A stretch of 32,216 nucleotides of DNA from Coriobacteriia bacterium (lineage in GTDB: Bacteria > Actinomycetota > Coriobacteriia > Coriobacteriales > Eggerthellaceae), in the NCBI GenBank assembly GCA_030540225.1, contig JAUNWQ010000015.1, positions 1 through 32,216 on the forward strand, read 5' to 3'. This document shows positions 24,936 to 32,216 of this stretch, piece by piece. The notes beneath the pieces are model-generated. The model ran no database searches. It was not told where the DNA came from and worked only from the letters and a program-made list of their open reading frames with translations. Numbering within the stretch: position 1 is the first letter of the stretch; each line of letters starts with the position of its first letter. The translations under genes and the position numbers were made by a program.

Positions 24936-25457
24936 TTATGACCTTTCACCCTTCTTCCATTCTCTGTCGGTTACCATCGCCTTTTCCAGCGCGCGCCTGA
25001 GCGAAGGGTTCTCCACAGATGACACCATCTGCTCAACTTCGGTTTTTTCCTCGGGGGAAAGTGGAACCGAGCGGGAACTTTCAGACTTCGTTTCGCATAC
25101 ATCTCTATAAGGATGACGCTTGCGCATGTCGAACCGGGAAGGGTAGGTTTTGAACTCATCTATCCTCTCGCCGAAACGCTCATGGAGCCGAAGCATGATC
25201 AGATGCTGCCGGCAGTGGACATCCGAACGGAAGTTTCCATCGTCCATATACACATACAGCGAGCGGATTCCTTCTTCTTCTTTTATATAGACAGCGTTCA
25301 CATGATCGAGGACGTAGGGAGCATTTTCCTTGTATACATACTCGATTGCATCTTTCCACATCGTGCGAACCTCGGCGGCCCGTCGAGCGATGAGCGTCTT
25401 CTCATCAGTCGGCAGCGAACTGAACAGACGCGCCATTTCTTTTCCAATCCTAGCCAC
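24936..25457 (-). CDS. dciA: DUF721 protein, DciA-type replicative helicase loader/operator
   Basis: A 173-residue DUF721 protein. DciA is the ancestral bacterial factor that helps load DnaB helicase at the origin, and actinobacteria carry it between recF and gyrB as here. The DciA core is at about 20-95 (RTMWKDAIEYVYKENA, then a strand-rich part and LIMLRLHERFGERIDEFK). A basic linker and a helical C-terminus with SPEEKTEVEQMVSSVENPSL follow, resembling the tail of other actinobacterial members. The GTG at 25457 has AGGAGG 6 nt upstream and overlaps the end of recF by 8 nt, so the genes are coupled. The open frame extends further inside recF without similarity. Confidence 0.85.
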   Translation of the reverse strand: MARIGKEMARLFSSLPTDEKTLIARRAAEVRTMWKDAIEYVYKENAPYVLDHVNAVYIKEEEGIRSLYVYMDDGNFRSDVHCRQHLIMLRLHERFGERIDEFKTYPSRFDMRKRHPYRDVCETKSESSRSVPLSPEEKTEVEQMVSSVENPSLRRALEKAMVTDREWKKGERS

Positions 25458-26574
25458 GTGCTGCCTCCTCACCCAACTGCACGACACGAGCATTCCTGAG
25501 AAGGGAATCATCGAAATAGGCGAGGTTAGCCGTCGTGATGAACGTCTGCATATCTCCCGAGATAAATTCCACCAGTGCATGCCTTCTACGCTCGTCAAGC
25601 TCGCTCATCACGTCATCGAGAAGGAGCACCGGCTTCTGGCTGAGCATATCCTCGATAATCGACGCCTCGGCAAGCTTGCAAGCAAGGACAATAGAGCGTT
25701 GCTGCCCCTGACTTCCATAATTTTCCGCATTCTTTCCCTCGATGTAGAAGCCGATCTCGTCGGAATGAGGCCCAACGACGCTCTTTCGGCGGGCGAGCTC
25801 CTCGCCGCGGCGCGCTTCAAGGGCAGAAGCGAGCGCATCACGCGCCTCATCTCGAGAAAACGAGGCAACCCCACACGGTGTTTCACGTGAAACAGGGGTC
25901 ATCCAGGAAGGAGCATACGTCACTTGCAGCTCCTCACCTTGAGCGATGTCGGCGTAACGACGAGAAATCTCCGGCGCAAGCTTCGCAAACAGCGCCGCAC
26001 GATAACACGCAAGCTGCGCGCCGCAGGTTACCAGCGTCTCGTTGATACTGTCGATGAGCGCTACCTGGGATTCCTCTTTTAGAAGCCTGTTCTTGTAGCG
26101 GATGACCTTCTCGTAATCCTTCTTAATAAGGTAGTGATTCGGCGAGAGCTGCGACCCCAAAGCATCAATCGCGGTGCGTCGGACGCTCATTGATCCTTTC
26201 ACGAGGTCGAGGTCATCTGGCGTGAAAGACACAGAAGGAACGAGCCCCTTCAAATCAGCAGGCCGTCTCGCTTTGCCGTTCAACGTGTACTTCCGCTTAT
26301 GACTTTCAAGCAGCATGACAATATCGAGGACCCGATCGTCTCCTGTCACGCGCGCCTCAGTGCGGGCGTAGCTTTCCCCGTGTTTTATTACCTGGTCGAT
26401 GAGCGGATGGCGAAACGAGGAAAGCGCCGTCATCAGCTGAATGCCTTCGACGATGTTTGTCTTTCCGACCGCATTCGGCCCCACGAACAAGGTGAGCGCC
26501 CCGATATCGTTCAGCTCGAAGCGCTCGTAATTGCGAAAGTTAGTAAACCCTATATGCTCAATGGACAGCGTCAC
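25450..26574 (-). CDS. recF: DNA replication and repair protein RecF
   Basis: An SMC/ABC-type ATPase that, with RecO and RecR, helps load RecA at single-strand gaps. The 374-residue protein starts LSIEHIGFTNFRNYERFEL. Walker A is GPNAVGKTN (33-41), with Ala where most RecF proteins have Gly. The ABC signature region is YGSQGQQRSIVLACKLAEA (about 290-308) and Walker B is VLLLDDVMSELD (about 319-330). The start is GTG, overlapping the dnaN stop in GTGA, so translation is coupled. A full parS site lies inside the coding sequence at 25879-25894 and encodes V-S-R-E-T. Confidence 0.95.
   Translation of the reverse strand: MTLSIEHIGFTNFRNYERFELNDIGALTLFVGPNAVGKTNIVEGIQLMTALSSFRHPLIDQVIKHGESYARTEARVTGDDRVLDIVMLLESHKRKYTLNGKARRPADLKGLVPSVSFTPDDLDLVKGSMSVRRTAIDALGSQLSPNHYLIKKDYEKVIRYKNRLLKEESQVALIDSINETLVTCGAQLACYRAALFAKLAPEISRRYADIAQGEELQVTYAPSWMTPVSRETPCGVASFSRDEARDALASALEARRGEELARRKSVVGPHSDEIGFYIEGKNAENYGSQGQQRSIVLACKLAEASIIEDMLSQKPVLLLDDVMSELDERRRHALVEFISGDMQTFITTANLAYFDDSLLRNARVVQLGEEAARG
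25879..25894. promoter_or_regulatory. parS site (ParB binding), copy 3, inside recF
   Basis: TGTTTCACGTGAAACA is identical to the 16-bp bacterial parS consensus. It is inside recF, about 2 kb from the origin. It is the best match and the most origin-proximal of the three. Confidence 0.93.
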
Positions 26575-27671
26575 GAGATGCGCACCGGCATGACGAGATA
26601 AAGGAAGTTCTCAGGGGCTTCCGCCTTGAAGATTCCCGGTTCACGAGAAGTTCCCACCTCCAGATACACCGAATCACTCGACACCGACGAAAGGCCGTCG
26701 AGCACGTAGGCGAAGTTGAAGGCAATTTCCGCGTCGTCACCCTCGATGGAGCAGGAAAGCGTCTCCTGAGCGGATCCGACATCCTGGGAAGCGGCGGACA
26801 GCTGAACCGTCTGAGATGCCGCGTTCAGATCGAACTTAATCGGCGTGGAAGAAGAACCAAGAAGAGACGCTCTCTTCACCGCCGCGACGAGGTGGCTGAC
26901 GTCGATCTTCGCGCGCGTCCCATGCTTTCCCGAAAGCAGCTGCTTGTAATTGGGGAAATTGCCCTCGATTCGACGGTTGATGAAAACGGTGCCCTCGCAG
27001 CTGACAAGTATCTGATTCTCGGCAAGCGCAATCTGAACGTTGGACTCGGTTTTCGGCAAGGACGCGATATCCTGCAAAAACGAGCCGGAAATCACCGCCT
27101 CGAATTCATCGGCAGCGGAATCGGAAAGCTCAACCTCGGCCAAGGCTAAACGATACGAGTCGGTCGCAACCATCTTGAAGTGGTTCTCCTCGAGCGTCAC
27201 CAGAGCACCAGTGAGAATCGCACGGCTTTCATCCTTCGAAACCGCGCGCGCAACCTTTTTCACCATCGCGGCGAATTTCGTGAAGGGGACCTCAATGCGC
27301 TGCGAAGCCTCCACGTGGGGGAAGCCGGGGAAATCCTCATAGTTGAGCGCCTTGATCGAAAACGAGGAGCTATCACAGGTGATAAGTGCGTTCTCCTCGT
27401 CGGCTTCCACGTGAACCGCGGCATCGGGCAGATTTTTCACGATGTCGGAGAACAGTTTGCCGGGAACAACCGCCTTGCCCTCCTCTTCCACGAGTGCAGC
27501 CGTCGAGTACTGGATGGAAAGCTCAAGGTCGGTCGCCTGGAGAACGAGCAAATCATTCGTCGCCTCGAGCAAAATGCCGGAGAGAACGGGCAGAGTCGAG
27601 CGGGTGGATACGCCTTTAATAACAATTGCAAGGGCATTCTGGAGTTCGCTTTTGCTGATGCTGAATTTCAA
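26571..27671 (-). CDS. dnaN: DNA polymerase III beta subunit (sliding clamp)
   Basis: The ring-shaped processivity clamp of the replicase. The product is 366 residues, exactly the classical length, starting KFSISKSELQNALAIV and ending LYLVMPVRIS, the hydrophobic C-terminal pattern of beta clamps. The TTG at 27671 is chosen because AGAAGG lies 5 nt upstream. An in-frame ATG at 27707 overlaps the TATAAT of the promoter and so cannot be on the transcript. It is the first gene of the dnaN-recF-dciA unit and points away from the origin. Its stop overlaps the recF start by 4 nt. Confidence 0.96.
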   Translation of the reverse strand: MKFSISKSELQNALAIVIKGVSTRSTLPVLSGILLEATNDLLVLQATDLELSIQYSTAALVEEEGKAVVPGKLFSDIVKNLPDAAVHVEADEENALITCDSSSFSIKALNYEDFPGFPHVEASQRIEVPFTKFAAMVKKVARAVSKDESRAILTGALVTLEENHFKMVATDSYRLALAEVELSDSAADEFEAVISGSFLQDIASLPKTESNVQIALAENQILVSCEGTVFINRRIEGNFPNYKQLLSGKHGTRAKIDVSHLVAAVKRASLLGSSSTPIKFDLNAASQTVQLSAASQDVGSAQETLSCSIEGDDAEIAFNFAYVLDGLSSVSSDSVYLEVGTSREPGIFKAEAPENFLYLVMPVRIS

Positions 27672-27705
27672 GGAAACCTTCTCTCTTTCTTTTCTGCTGC
27701 GCGTC

Positions 27706-27711
27706 ATTATA
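27706..27711 (-). promoter_or_regulatory. dnaN promoter -10 element
   Basis: A perfect TATAAT on the minus strand is 34 nt before the TTG start. TTATCC, 17 nt upstream, is a poor -35. The transcript would start near 27700. Confidence 0.6.
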
Positions 27712-27785
27712 CAGGCTCAAACAGGCACGGATAATCCTCAAGTGAAAGCATCCGAAAATTCAAAGCTCTCTTTCACTCAATTCTC

Positions 27786-27812
27786 TTTTTCACCTCACCA
27801 AAAGGTGAAAAA
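27786..27812. repeat. 10-bp inverted repeat at the dnaN edge of oriC
   Basis: TTTTTCACCT (27786-27795) and AGGTGAAAAA (27803-27812) are exact reverse complements with a 7-nt centre. It lies about 20 nt before the perfect DnaA box. It could be a protein site or a cruciform-prone element. Confidence 0.6.
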
Positions 27813-27993
27813 CTGGCTTTTACCTTTCATTTTTATCCACAATTCCTTCTCATACATCGTTTTCCACCAGATGAGGCTCTTCCCGTTGTGGAAAATGTTG
27901 AAAAACGGGCATTCATGCATAAAGAGCTGTGGAAAAGTCGTCTTTTACCTTATTTTTATATAGTTCCCTATCTTCAATTTCTTAACGATTGCG

Positions 27994-28111
27994 ACCTGGG
28001 GTTTTACAAAAAGACAAGATGTTGACCAGGTAATATATTAATTCTTCAACTTAAGGAGAGTATTCTCAACCCTTCCCTTTAAAAGATCAAAAATCACTCA
28101 CCTGGGGTTTT
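27994..28111 (+). repeat. direct repeat ACCTGGGGTTTT in oriC
   Basis: The same 12-mer lies at 27994-28005 and 28100-28111. An inverted ACCTGG lies between them at 28024-28030. The two copies bracket the most AT-rich stretch of the gap. Confidence 0.7.
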
Positions 28112-28349
28112 GATTTTACGCGCGCCTTTCATCAGGCGAAACCGATTTTCTCCTCAAGTCAATGAAAATTTTAACAATCCGCTTTCTCAACTTTTCGTTT
28201 TCCACCGTGCTTTTTCAGAGTTTTCAACTTTTATTGAATGAATTGTTGAAAAGTCTGAAAGCACCTCGTAGATTTCCCCAATTCTTTCAACTGAAAGTGA
28301 ATTTCTTTCTTTCTCAACCAAGAAAGAGGCAGGTGGACTTCTTTCATTG

Positions 28350-28378
28350 TTGAAAAAAGGCTACAATTCGTCTAAATA
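28350..28378 (+). promoter_or_regulatory. candidate promoter of the GHKL/winged-helix gene
   Basis: TTGAAA at 28350-28355 is 17 nt from TAAATA at 28373-28378. A better -10 (TACAAT, 28362-28367) has no clear -35. Either would start a short leader before the ATG at 28421. The -35 overlaps the last GTTGAAAA motif of oriC. Confidence 0.4.
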
Positions 28379-28420
28379 AAACTGAAAACGCTGAATAAAT
28401 GGAACACGGTTTTGGAAAAA

Positions 28421-29485
28421 ATGAACAACACCCCACATGAAGATCCGGTGACCCAGCCCGAAGGCGAAGGATCCTACGACTACACCTTCGTGACGTCGGT
28501 TGCTCGAATCGCACTTTACGACGACCTGCGCAGCGCTCCGCGCGTGACCGAGATAATGCCGGCATCCACGCCCGACTACATCGAGGCGCTTGCGTCGACT
28601 ATCTACAATCAAGCGAAACAAGCGGGGGGGTCCATCCCCTATACCGTCGTGCGCGAAGTATCGGAAAACTTCATCCACGCTCGCTTCACCGAGATCATCG
28701 TATCCATCCTCGATGGCGGCAATACCATTCGATTCGCCGATCAGGGGCCGGGCATTAGCGATAAGAAGAAAGCCCAGTTGCCAGGATTTTCCTCAGCGGT
28801 CGAGCCGATGAAGGGCTACATCCGCGGCGTCGGGTCGGGCCTTCCGATTGTGTGCGATTATTTGGACTTTACCCATGGTTCCATCTCGATCGACGACAAC
28901 ATCGGGCAAGGGACCGTCGTCACCATCAGCATGAATGGCGAGACGGGTGCCGGCGATACTGAAGAGCGTGGGGAAGGGGAGCTCCCCGTGGGCAAATACG
29001 CGCCCAAGGAGGACCAATTCGTCGCAGAACGAATCGATCCCGGCGCCGTCCAACCCATACAACCCGTGCAACAGCCTATGCAACAACCCGTACAGCAACC
29101 GGTGTCCCCGTATTATCCACAGCAAGGGTACGTTCCCCAGGTTGTCCCCGCATATGCGCAGATGCCTGCCCAACCTTACCTGCAACAAGTAACGCCCCAG
29201 GTCATGCAGCCAGTTATTAACACTTACCAGCAGCCTTACGCACAGCCGCAGCCCCGCTCGTATGCGACACCCGCCCTCAATCCACGGGAGAAGGCCTTCC
29301 TCAACGCTCTGCTCGCCGAAGGTCCGCTTGGCGTGACCGACCTCGTCAGGCTCACGAGCACACCTCAAGCAACCGTTTACACCACGCTTAAAAAACTCCA
29401 GGAAGAAGGTCTCATCGAGATGGTTCCCGGGCAGAAGAAGCGCACGCTCACGGCATTCGGCATGGAAATCGCCGAGACGATGTAG
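28421..29485 (+). CDS. GHKL ATPase with C-terminal winged helix, next to oriC
   Basis: A 354-residue protein that I cannot match to a named family. Residues about 50-172 form a GHKL (histidine-kinase-type) ATPase: N box with E79 and N83, G1 box ADQGPGI (106-112) and G2 box GVGSGLPIV (136-144). It is closest in style to SpoIIAB-like ATP-binding domains. No phosphoacceptor His domain or sensor domain is visible. Residues about 205-285 are a Pro/Gln/Tyr-rich flexible linker. About 287-354 is a winged helix of MarR/TrmB type (REKAFLNALLAEGPLGVTD, then TVYTTLKKLQEEGLIE). An ATP-switched DNA-binding protein is the natural inference. The ATG at 28421 is preferred to a TTG at 28412; the ribosome binding site is weak. 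It ends with its own terminator, 106 nt before dnaA. Confidence 0.85.
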   Translation: MNNTPHEDPVTQPEGEGSYDYTFVTSVARIALYDDLRSAPRVTEIMPASTPDYIEALASTIYNQAKQAGGSIPYTVVREVSENFIHARFTEIIVSILDGGNTIRFADQGPGISDKKKAQLPGFSSAVEPMKGYIRGVGSGLPIVCDYLDFTHGSISIDDNIGQGTVVTISMNGETGAGDTEERGEGELPVGKYAPKEDQFVAERIDPGAVQPIQPVQQPMQQPVQQPVSPYYPQQGYVPQVVPAYAQMPAQPYLQQVTPQVMQPVINTYQQPYAQPQPRSYATPALNPREKAFLNALLAEGPLGVTDLVRLTSTPQATVYTTLKKLQEEGLIEMVPGQKKRTLTAFGMEIAETM

Positions 29486-29513
29486 CCTGAGCTTCATCTG
29501 GATTACCTTCGCA

Positions 29514-29549
29514 TGCCGCGCGCGAAACGGCCACGCGCGGCACTTTTTT
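29514..29549 (+). terminator. terminator of the GHKL/winged-helix gene
   Basis: A perfect 9-bp GC-rich stem (29514-29522 with 29534-29542) has an 11-nt loop and is followed by C and six T. It separates this gene from dnaA. No strong dnaA promoter is seen after it; GATACT at 29563 is the best -10. Confidence 0.85.
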
Positions 29550-29591
29550 GTATACAATTGCAGATACTTCGAATAGGCTCGGGAGACTCAT

Positions 29592-31196
29592 ATGGACAGC
29601 TCTGAACTCAACCATAATTGGAACAACGTTTGCGAACAGGTGAAAACGTACGACAACGTCGACTCATCGCAGGTCAACGCCTTTTTCTCGCGTCTCGTTC
29701 CCCAGGCGATGAGCGAGGGTTTTCTGATGCTTACAGCCGATAACGACTTCATCAAGTCGTGGGTAGAGCAGCATTATCTCGAAATTATCAAACAGGCGCT
29801 GAATGACCTTTTTCACGTGCCTTTCAACGTCATCCTCGCTGTAGACTCCGCACCGGCTGCGCCCGCGGTGGCGCCGTCAAACCCTCAGTCAACCACCCGC
29901 GAACCTCAGAGTGTTCCGGCGAACCCGGGAACAATGCCCCCAAGTGCGGCCGTTGCCCCTGTGCACGAATACCCACCGGCGATCATCCCTTCCTTTCCTT
30001 CGGTTGACCTTCCTCAAGCTGCACAACCTCAACCAGAGCAAGAACGACGATTGACTCTCGACGATCATTTCGAGGCGGCGGGGGTCGAGCGCAGCGCAGA
30101 GGAGCAGCCGCCCGCGCACGCGACCCCTCACAAACGCGCGGAAGGGCCTGCCTCCCTCACCTTCGAAAACTTCGTCATCGGCGACTCTAACCGAATGGCT
30201 TACTCGATGGCCGTCGATGTTGCGGAAACCCCCGGCAAGATGCACCTCAATCCGCTTTTCATCTACGGCAAGAGCGGGCTGGGGAAAACGCACCTTTTGC
30301 GCGCAATCCAAAACTACATCAACGAGACGCGGCCGCAGCTGAAGGTGACCTACGTCGATTCCGCAGAGCTGCTCTCGGATTACATGGAAGCCTCGGTGGC
30401 GCATGACAAGGAAAAATCGAGCTATCGCAACTTCAAACAGCGCTACGAGGAATCCGACGTGCTGCTCATCGACGACGTGCAATACTTCCAGGGCAAGAAA
30501 CAGACGCTCGATATCGTGTTCCAAATATTCAATAAGATGACTGACCAGGGAAAACAGGTTGTCCTTTCCGCTGACCGCGCACCTAAAAACATTGATATCG
30601 ACGAGCGCTACATCACCCGATTCAACTCTGGCGGAACCTTCGACATCCAGCCGCCCGAAATCGAGACGAAGCTCGGAATCGTGAAAAGCTTCATCGAGGA
30701 ATATCGCGAAAGCGAAGGGGACCCGTCGTTTTCCATCTCGAGCGATATTCAGATGTACATCGCCGAGAACTCCAGCTCGAACATCCGCGAACTGAAAAGC
30801 GCCGTCACCAAGATCATCTACCAGATGGCGTTCACCCACAACTCCGACCTGACGCTTGACGACGTGCGCGGCGTGCTCGAGAGCCACTTCTCCGGCGGCC
30901 CCTCGAAAAGGCTTGCCGTCGCCGACATTCAACGCGAGGTGGAAAACTATTACAAAATCAGCCACAGCGATATGGTGGGGAAGAAAAGGCCACGTCATAT
31001 CACCTACGCAAGGAAAATCGCGATGTACCTCTGCCGCCAGATGCTTGATTTGCCCTTCAACGACATCGGCAAGAAGTTCAATCGGGATCACACGACCGTG
31101 CTGTACTCGGTAAGCGACGTCGAGAAGCAACTCAAGGAAAGCCGCGATATGAACGAGGAAATCGAAGCGCTTAAGATGATCATTCGCGACCTGTAG
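29592..31196 (+). CDS. dnaA: chromosomal replication initiator DnaA
   Basis: An AAA+ initiator that binds DnaA boxes and melts oriC. The 534 residues include domain I (about 5-85), a long Pro/Ala/Gln-rich domain II (about 86-185), AAA+ domain III (about 188-425) and DNA-binding domain IV (about 440-534). Walker A is GKSGLGKT (226-233) and Walker B is LLIDDVQ (291-297). Domain IV has RHITYARKIAMYLC and IGKKFNRDHTTVLYSV. The usual FGGRDHTTV is FNRDHTTV here, one residue shorter in the helix-turn-helix loop; the base-contacting RDHT is kept. GGGAG lies 6 nt before the ATG. Unlike most bacteria it is not followed by dnaN but by rpmH, same strand. Confidence 0.97.
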   Translation: MDSSELNHNWNNVCEQVKTYDNVDSSQVNAFFSRLVPQAMSEGFLMLTADNDFIKSWVEQHYLEIIKQALNDLFHVPFNVILAVDSAPAAPAVAPSNPQSTTREPQSVPANPGTMPPSAAVAPVHEYPPAIIPSFPSVDLPQAAQPQPEQERRLTLDDHFEAAGVERSAEEQPPAHATPHKRAEGPASLTFENFVIGDSNRMAYSMAVDVAETPGKMHLNPLFIYGKSGLGKTHLLRAIQNYINETRPQLKVTYVDSAELLSDYMEASVAHDKEKSSYRNFKQRYEESDVLLIDDVQYFQGKKQTLDIVFQIFNKMTDQGKQVVLSADRAPKNIDIDERYITRFNSGGTFDIQPPEIETKLGIVKSFIEEYRESEGDPSFSISSDIQMYIAENSSSNIRELKSAVTKIIYQMAFTHNSDLTLDDVRGVLESHFSGGPSKRLAVADIQREVENYYKISHSDMVGKKRPRHITYARKIAMYLCRQMLDLPFNDIGKKFNRDHTTVLYSVSDVEKQLKESRDMNEEIEALKMIIRDL

Positions 31197-31199
31197 AAC

Positions 31200-31269
31200 A
31201 ATCCCCTATTCCCCTTTCTCCTGCTCAAACCCTTCAAAATGGTGTTAATAGCGAGGGGAATAGGGGGTT
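31200..31269 (+). terminator. long hairpin just after dnaA
   Basis: CCCCTATTCCCCT (31203-31215) and AGGGGAATAGGGG (31254-31266) are exact reverse complements; the stem extends by a few more pairs. The loop is 38 nt and only TTTC follows, so it is either an inefficient terminator or an mRNA 3' stabilising structure. It begins 4 nt after the dnaA stop. Confidence 0.55.
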
Positions 31270-31668
31270 TCGAGAGCAGATTGGGGAAGGCAAGTAATCG
31301 CGCGGACTCATGACGGACGGCACTCAGCTTCGTCCTACGCTTGAAAACCTACTCAAGAATCGGGGAAGAATCAGTAGAAAACCGGCGGTTTGCGGTGGAG
31401 TGATAACGAAAGCGATAATTCACGTTGGAAAGAAGAACACGCTCTCTACCGAGGGAAATGAATGAGAATAGCGATTTCACCTGGGAAGATGCTTCTTTTT
31501 CACCAATCCCCCGCGCTTATTATCATTACAAAGAGAAACATATATACAAAGAAAAAAGGCGAAGAATAAGAAGGGCATCATTCCGCTTGCGGGCATGCGG
31601 TTAAGCAAAAGGCCAGCTTAGTGTGAAATCTTTCTAAAAAGCTCTGTTCATCGATGGCTTCTGTGTTA
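31270..31668. other. intergenic stretch between dnaA and rpmH without a recognisable gene
   Basis: About 400 nt with no open frame of any quality on either strand. No DnaA box was found. It contains one ACCTGGG element (near 31480), as in oriC, and an A-rich block at about 31525-31575. An unrecognised small RNA cannot be excluded. Confidence 0.5.
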
Positions 31669-31674
31669 TATAAT
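31669..31674 (+). promoter_or_regulatory. rpmH-rnpA promoter -10 element
   Basis: A perfect TATAAT gives a predicted start near 31681 and a leader of about 49 nt. TGTTCA, 18 nt upstream, is a weak -35. Confidence 0.6.
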
Positions 31675-31729
31675 TCAGAAGTTACTCTGCATCCAGCTTG
31701 AATTAACAGATAATGAAAGGGATAGAGAT

Positions 31730-31864
31730 ATGAAACGTACGTATCAGCCGAACAAGCGCAAGCGTGCTAAGTGCCATGGCTTCCGTTCTCGCATGGCAAC
31801 CAAGGGCGGCCGTGCCGTGCTCAAGGCTCGCCGCAACAAGGGGCGCAAGCGTCTCTGCGTGTAG
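31730..31864 (+). CDS. rpmH: 50S ribosomal protein L34
   Basis: A 44-residue, very basic protein of the large ribosomal subunit. It has the L34 signature [13 protein letters not shown] at the N-terminus and [25 protein letters not shown] to the end (given here in parts of the family pattern: MATKGGR, then ARRNKGR). AAAGGGA lies upstream of the ATG. rnpA follows after 12 nt in the same transcript, the normal order next to bacterial origins. It has no usable overlap with the opposite-strand open frame at 31703-31996, which is a shadow. Confidence 0.97.
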
Positions 31865-31876
31865 CGAGGCTTTTCG

Positions 31877-32216
31877 TTGGATATCATTAAATCCAGCGCA
31901 GAGATCTCCGAGATGTTCTCGCGAGGAAAGCGGATTCATACTCCTTTTCTCACGATAGTCTACGCCTCGGAGAAAACAGAGGGGGCAGTGCAACACGACC
32001 TAAGGGGTCGTGTTGCTTTTATTGCAGGGAAAAAGCACGGCAACGCGGTGTGGCGCAATTCAGCGAAGCGCCGCATGCGCGCAATCTGTCGTGATCTGCA
32101 AGGCCCTTGGGCGGGCTATGATGTGATATTTCTCGCAAAGTCGCCCGTCACCCGCGCTTCTTATAGTAAAGTGCTAACGGCATGCGCCAAGGTAGTCGAA
32201 GGATCAGAATTGGTCG
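31877..32216 (+). CDS. rnpA: ribonuclease P protein component (C-terminus cut by the window)
   Basis: The basic protein cofactor of RNase P, which matures tRNA 5' ends. The visible 113 codons begin at TTG (31877), with GCGAGG upstream; this is the only sensible start after the in-frame rpmH stop. The N-terminal DIIKSSAEISEMFSRGKR has the family spacing to GK (residues 17-18). The RNR signature is clear: AGKKHGNAVWRNSAKRRMR at about 54-72. The protein continues beyond the window, so the missing end is an artefact of the cut. An 11-bp terminator-like hairpin lies inside the gene at 31990-32020. Confidence 0.94.
   Translation, partial: MDIIKSSAEISEMFSRGKRIHTPFLTIVYASEKTEGAVQHDLRGRVAFIAGKKHGNAVWRNSAKRRMRAICRDLQGPWAGYDVIFLAKSPVTRASYSKVLTACAKVVEGSELV
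31990..32020 (+). terminator. terminator-like hairpin inside rnpA
   Basis: GCAACACGACC (31990-32000) and GGTCGTGTTGC (32006-32016) form a perfect 11-bp stem with a 5-nt loop, followed by TTTTATT. It is inside the coding sequence about 115 nt after the start, so translating ribosomes would normally prevent it. It could give premature termination when rnpA is poorly translated. Confidence 0.5.

Follow-up and report, generated by a model that had tools for sequence, protein, structure and literature searches.

Several regulators of bacterial replication initiation are known, among them SirA, YabA, DnaD, Soj, Hda, SeqA, DiaA, AdpA and MtrA, and to our knowledge the control of initiation has been worked out mainly in E. 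coli, Bacillus, Caulobacter and some Actinomycetes. As far as we know, none of these regulators is related in sequence or domain make-up to the protein described here, and the likeness is one of proposed role only. By domain, the closest described systems are the histidine-kinase CA domains (HK853, CpxA, CheA, KinB), which share its GHKL fold and its N, G1 and G2 boxes; the anti-sigma kinases SpoIIAB and RsbW (HATPase_c_2); the AlbA_2/HATPase_c_4/winged-helix proteins of the DIP2311 type, which we take to be COG2865-like and for which we know of no origin linkage; and the TrmB/MarR/Csa3-type regulators, whose winged-helix family resembles its C-terminal domain. When ATP binds to a GHKL protein, the lid becomes ordered and the protein may be driven to dimerise.

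The window analysed here is a stretch of 32,216 nucleotides from a Coriobacteriia bacterium of the Eggerthellaceae, and between its oriC and dnaA lies a gene, here called ghkl, which encodes a GHKL ATPase fold joined to a winged helix. We lean towards the reading that ghkl is a conserved regulator heading the dnaA transcription unit of deep-branching Actinomycetota and acting at oriC and the dnaA promoter. It is a strong candidate regulator of DnaA supply or replication start because a gene that joins an ATP-binding to a DNA-binding fold lies next to the origin and directly before dnaA, near-classwide and in many further deep-branching Actinomycetota. The gene and its parts are as follows.

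28412..29485, plus strand: GHKL-winged-helix gene (ghkl), 357 aa from TTG 28412, 354 aa from ATG 28421
28484..28936, plus strand: GHKL/HATPase_c domain, residues 22-172 counted from the ATG, including a conserved N-terminal extension, ARIAxYDD... (Pfam PF02518; model pLDDT mostly >85)
28652..28693, plus strand: N box REVSENFIHARFTE, residues 78-91; E82, N83 and H86 invariant in 51 homologues, E79 nearly so
28739..28756, plus strand: G1 box DQGPGI, residues 107-112; D107, G109, P110 and G111 invariant in the 51 homologues
28826..28846, plus strand: G2 box GVGSGLP, residues 136-142; G136, G138, G140 and P142 invariant in the 51 homologues
28937..29275, plus strand: low-complexity linker, pLDDT mostly <60; length varies from 12 to 197 aa among homologues
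29276..29482, plus strand: C-terminal winged helix, residues 286-354 (Pfam TrmB E 1.6e-7; pLDDT 92-98)

The first-pass annotation had placed the open reading frame at 28421-29485. The frame is present, and its start is probably the TTG at 28412 rather than the ATG at 28421, because the window ATG codon is not kept in a same-genus relative, whose protein is 94% identical, starts at a TTG and begins MEKTNNTPHDE, with Thr at the ATG codon of the window version (MEKMNNTPHED). Many homologues outside Eggerthellaceae (L035-L064) start with M(K/A/P)xFY-type motifs, possibly a short interaction motif, which are absent from the window protein.

As shown by Pfam, residues 74-171 match HATPase_c (E 1e-8) and residues 286-340 match a TrmB/MarR/ArsR/IclR-like winged helix (E 1.6e-7), both above the Pfam cut-off. 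Within the N box, residues 78-87 read REVSENFIHA, and E82, N83, H86, D107, G109, P110, G111, G136, G138, G140 and T168 were invariant across the 51 homologues. In a broader set that takes in outgroup classes (n=56), the equivalent N-box, G1 and G2 residues showed little or no variation. HATPase_c was matched in 51/51 homologues and winged-helix families in most of them. Pfam, residues and fold comparison showed the boxes and HATPase_c fold of the GHKL superfamily, and Pfam and the structure model showed a winged-helix DNA-binding domain as in TrmB/MarR-like regulators, so the intact ATP-site boxes and the MarR/TrmB-like winged helix that had been read from the sequence were confirmed. The AlphaFold model of the window protein, a prediction that the annotation had proposed as a check, gave two confident domains joined by a disordered linker. 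This linker had been described as 80 residues of Pro, Gln and Tyr; the composition stands, with Ala and Gly also abundant, and the length is about 110 residues (175-285). No curated family names the protein, NCBIfam giving no equivalog and partial matches far below cut-off.

Between the window and the same-genus relative, omega was 0.085 for the whole of ghkl and 0.20 for the linker, while the GHKL and winged-helix domains had no amino-acid change at all (omega 0.00, with dS of 0.38 and 0.27). Strong purifying selection on both globular domains is indicated by the sequence comparison.

Profile-profile comparison matched the GHKL domain to histidine-kinase CA domains with a probability of 98% (E 2.7e-14) and to the class's own HATPase_c_2 proteins with 21% (E 0.001). 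Whole-genome scans for HATPase_c_2 at E 1e-5 did not pick up ghkl, and on these two results we rejected an anti-sigma kinase of the SpoIIAB/RsbW type; the sporulation-type anti-sigma factor that had been named as a possible undoing of the proposal is thus not what the profiles point to. Weak TIGR01925 matches occur in 17/56 ghkl members, and the modelled order of strand, helix and N-box helix is the one that we take SpoIIAB to have, but the ghkl protein differs from SpoIIAB and RsbW by its extra winged helix. The best fold match of a short-linker homologue over both domains was DIP2311 (PDB 3LMM; TM 0.48 by query, E 2e-8), in which a GHKL-like fold is likewise followed by a winged helix. Unlike the AlbA_2/HATPase_c_4/winged-helix proteins, however, the window protein lacks an AlbA_2/Schlafen domain, and its match is to HATPase_c instead of HATPase_c_4. 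Membership of that family was rejected since neither domain was matched and ghkl was not among the HATPase_c_4 matches; true HATPase_c_4 proteins are encoded elsewhere in the same genome (contigs C83 and C155). TrmB/MarR/Csa3-type regulators carry a sugar-binding or CARF domain as effector, whereas the ghkl protein carries a GHKL ATPase fold in its place.

Pfam and the AlphaFold model showed no DHp helix, phosphoacceptor or sensor domain in the window protein, as had been claimed, and Pfam found no HisKA-type match in it or in the 51 homologues. Because the defining phosphoacceptor is absent, the ghkl protein is not a histidine kinase, and it differs from these kinases further in its fusion to a winged helix. 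It could still be a kinase tethered to DNA, with a winged helix that serves only as an anchor at the origin and a CA-like domain that would act in trans on another protein, phosphorylating domain I of DnaA, a response regulator or a separate histidine phosphotransfer protein. Histidine-kinase CA domains are the best profile and fold matches, and the N box retains its glutamate E79 and asparagine N83. We nevertheless regard this reading as rather doubtful: neither a DHp helix nor an H-box is present, apart from dnaA the typed loci show no kinase-partner gene with a fixed place next to ghkl, and MutL-type GHKL proteins also match the domain weakly, so a GHKL fold does not imply a kinase.

The reading as a regulator of the dnaA unit draws on the DNA around the gene, whose features are listed below.

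27708..28411, no strand assigned: oriC region, the dnaN-ghkl intergenic stretch, with DnaA boxes at 27833, 27860, 27887, 27896, 27928, 28198, 28244, 28348 and 28411 (three exact, the rest with one mismatch)
27994-28005 and 28100-28111: inverted copies (ACCTGGGGTTTT) of the CAGGTG-type element in the window oriC
28330..28336, plus strand: CAGGTGG, the window version (core only) of the Eggerthellaceae element CCCAGGTGRATRGATT
28348..28367, plus strand: putative ghkl promoter, with the one-mismatch DnaA box TTTTCAACA at 28348-28356 (minus strand) followed by the -10-like TACAAT at 28362-28367
29514..29549, plus strand: intrinsic-terminator-like hairpin and T run between ghkl and dnaA
29592..31196, plus strand: dnaA, immediately 3' of ghkl in every testable locus

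Matches to the DnaA box (TTWTCCACA, at most one mismatch) number 22 in the whole 32 kb window, where dinucleotide shuffles give an expectation of 7.2, and 9/22 fall within 27833-28419. Since the boxes cluster there against the shuffle expectation, the placement of ghkl between oriC and dnaA, which had been proposed from the sequence, is real. We then compared box density (at most one mismatch) in the 700 bp upstream of ghkl with that inside the ORF. In Eggerthellaceae it was 9.7 per kb upstream versus 0.3 per kb inside, and in the non-Coriobacteriales part of the class 11.9 versus 0.2 per kb; Atopobiaceae/Coriobacteriaceae-type loci showed a weaker contrast (5.4 versus 1.0 per kb). For most of the class this amounts to boxes about 30-fold denser upstream of ghkl than within the gene. 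Exact boxes inside ghkl ORFs came to 18 in all versus about 3.4 in codon-shuffled expectation, at positions that are not conserved, the ORF used in some loci starting upstream of the likely start. Two exact boxes each were seen in the ghkl ORFs of L041 and L043, and the window has one exact box, TTATCCACA, at 29113-29121 in the linker-coding part.

The last origin motif, which had been said to overlap the ghkl promoter region, is here corrected to a one-mismatch DnaA box, TTTTCAACA, lying just 5' of TACAAT. This box is kept in the same-genus relative and is mostly absent from Eggerthella-type promoters. The -10-like element GCTACAAT is widely conserved at ghkl promoters of Eggerthellaceae, where CCCAGGTGRATRGATT precedes it and covers the -35 position; in the window, the one-mismatch box sits between the CAGGTGG core and the -10-like hexamer. 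Exact genome matches of CCCAGGTGRATRGATT were five in 40 Eggerthellaceae genomes, 4/5 of them at the ghkl promoter, so that it resembles a single-site operator or a promoter element more than the motif of a regulon. Outside Eggerthellaceae, CAGGTG matches mostly lie between inverted DnaA boxes (TTTTCCACAGGTGTGGAAAA). Loci L048-L064, from the non-Coriobacteriales part of the class, share a strongly conserved plus-strand element resembling an extended -10, CTCTGnTAGAATCGG, about 450 nt before the ghkl start, with ACCTTGAAAA about 45 nt after it, within oriC; CTCTGnTAGAATCGG may be a promoter that reads through the origin.

K-mer enrichment performed for each group returned mainly DnaA boxes plus group-specific elements, and no non-DnaA-box motif common to all groups was found. 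Groups differ in the recognition-helix region as well (STAYRDL, SSTYVTL, QPTWSREL), and with this difference, and only DnaA boxes common to all, the comparison yielded no universal operator; that candidate was rejected. The pattern is consistent with a winged helix and a DNA site that changed together by group.

Coupling between ghkl and dnaA differs by lineage. The gap was at most 40 nt in 16/17 non-Coriobacteriales loci of the class, some overlapping by 4 nt, and the two genes look like an operon there. The median gap in Eggerthellaceae was 91 nt. In the window and the same-genus relative the two genes are kept apart by a strong hairpin and its T run, so simple ghkl-dnaA co-transcription is not universal.

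These data also bear on a structural role for the protein, in which it would directly help or block assembly of the DnaA filament, like an architectural protein bound next to DnaA boxes; GHKL domains that dimerise with ATP would close a loop from site to site, with little effect on transcription. Besides the promoter, CAGGTG-type sites are spread through the window oriC (27994, 28100, 28330), but this spread is found in few relatives and the operon-like dnaA coupling of other lineages suggests control of expression too; we consider this reading unlikely. Another possibility is that the protein controls transcription of dnaA, or of a larger regulon, with a GHKL domain that binds a non-ATP ligand or serves dimerisation only. 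The winged helix does resemble those of TrmB/MarR/Csa3-type regulators with small-molecule domains. However, the residues of the N, G1 and G2 boxes are kept with little or no change across several class-level lineages, which fits better with retained ATP binding than with a repurposed pocket, and the promoter element looks single-site. Such a factor therefore seems distinctly unlikely.

The distribution of ghkl speaks for the regulator of the dnaA unit that we favour. Homologues were found in 266/298 genomes of the class (E 1e-8), and a 51-member profile matched strongly in many more of the phylum's families, at least 21 family-level groups outside the class also carrying homologues; the search covered the phylum Actinomycetota and plasmids. 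Neighbourhoods were typed for 70 loci within the class and 40 outside, of which 108 were testable, two outside contigs that end right after ghkl not being counted. The results showed dnaA directly downstream of ghkl on the same strand in 108/108 testable loci, which span the class and 21 family codes outside it, often at most 40 nt away. Within the class, where a synteny search for the domain pair had been proposed, this held in 70/70 loci, including six closed chromosomes, checked separately, with ghkl last and dnaA first in the record. Outside the class, dnaA lay on the same stretch in 34/40 loci, and four more were closed chromosomes with dnaA at the record start. No unlinked copy was seen in any genome examined, and the gene is not scattered away from the origin, the outcome that had been named as fatal to the proposal. 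The fixed immediate neighbours, typed against origin genes only, were dnaA and rpmH or dnaN.

Among the class genomes listed without ghkl, 12 also lacked a detectable dnaA (assembly gaps) and one had dnaA cut at a contig end. Seven had dnaA and no ghkl (G162 and G229, both of one Eggerthellaceae genus, four members of family f9, and G061). Since dnaA is kept without ghkl in a few lineages, ghkl can be lost and is not essential everywhere. Actinomycete-type genomes examined (e.g. G319, 9.2 Mb) have dnaA and only background matches to the ghkl profile. Plasmids gave no match at E 1e-8, and a mobile or plasmid origin was rejected. Mirror-tree comparison of ghkl with DnaA gave r of 0.83 (44 loci), 0.42 (87 loci) and 0.23 (73 loci), a run with r -0.05 being left out for a faulty DnaA alignment; because r was inconsistent between runs, it was not counted as evidence.

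The common gene order is rpmH - ori - ghkl - dnaA - dnaN. Against this order, the window lineage carries the block [ori-ghkl-dnaA] in inverted form, with dnaN diverging from ori and rpmH 3' of dnaA; the inverted block was seen in the window (24936-32216) and 12 other Eggerthellaceae loci (L034, L073, L074 and L233 versus L070 and L072 being compared). Eggerthellaceae have both orders, which can differ even inside a single genus code, and the tree requires at least two arrangement changes on well-supported branches, five by parsimony. Throughout, oriC, ghkl and dnaA stay together while dnaN/recF/gyrB or rpmH/rnpA change sides. That ghkl acts elsewhere, in stress signalling, defence or segregation, and owes its place by dnaA only to the stability of origin regions, has in its favour the similar stability of neighbours such as dnaN-recF-gyrB and the weak matches of Csa3/CARF regulators via the winged helix, but is very improbable given a linkage that outlasts inversions detaching dnaN or rpmH, the lack of unlinked copies in the genomes examined, and the Actinomycete-type genomes that keep dnaA without ghkl.

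For the regulator heading the dnaA unit, the mechanism we propose is that the GHKL domain would bind ATP, perhaps dimerising or changing shape upon binding or hydrolysis, and that the ATP state would alter winged-helix binding at sites in oriC/ghkl promoter DNA. Nucleotide state might in this way adjust how far ghkl and dnaA are transcribed, how DnaA loads at the overlapping boxes, or both. The dnaA linkage, the shared absence of dnaA from most listed class genomes without ghkl, box density, the close spacing to dnaA in non-Coriobacteriales loci, joint inversion, the invariant or nearly invariant ATP site, domains with omega 0.00 and the single-site -35 element of Eggerthellaceae speak for this proposal, while the group-variable recognition helix, the lack of a common non-DnaA element, the lineages without ghkl and the terminator in the window genus speak against it. 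More tentatively, the protein might represent an undescribed, phylum-deep class of initiation regulator, a nucleotide-gated winged-helix protein in the oriC-dnaA unit that is absent from Actinomycetes; if so, this class would tie the firing of origins, or the supply of DnaA, to the ATP state of the cell. The domains are of known kinds, and their pairing without AlbA_2 together with the fixed oriC-dnaA position is undescribed as far as we found. A full-text literature search returned no description of the protein, in agreement with the first-pass annotation, which knew of none with this architecture at this place, and a paper of 2026 on domain I of DnaA, with samples from six Actinomycetota classes (PMC13270200), contained none of the neighbouring-gene terms that were looked for. 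Fixed between oriC and dnaA in gut Coriobacteriia (relatives of Eggerthella, Slackia and Collinsella) and many other Actinomycetota, ghkl offers a concrete single-gene handle on initiation control, and from its domains one would predict a direct link between ATP and the origin, which is open to simple assays.

Two further observations concern the 3' side of ghkl. Just 3' of dnaA, at 31200-31269 of the window, lies an inverted repeat, AATCCCCTATTCCCCT / AGGGGAATAGGGGGTT, possibly a terminator; an Rfam match to MIR815 at 31202-31267 was far below the gathering score and was treated as chance. In L110 and L112 (family f36), a second dense DnaA-box cluster with 14.5 exact boxes per kb lies around the dnaA end, 1.2-2.2 kb after ghkl, which suggests a bipartite origin there.
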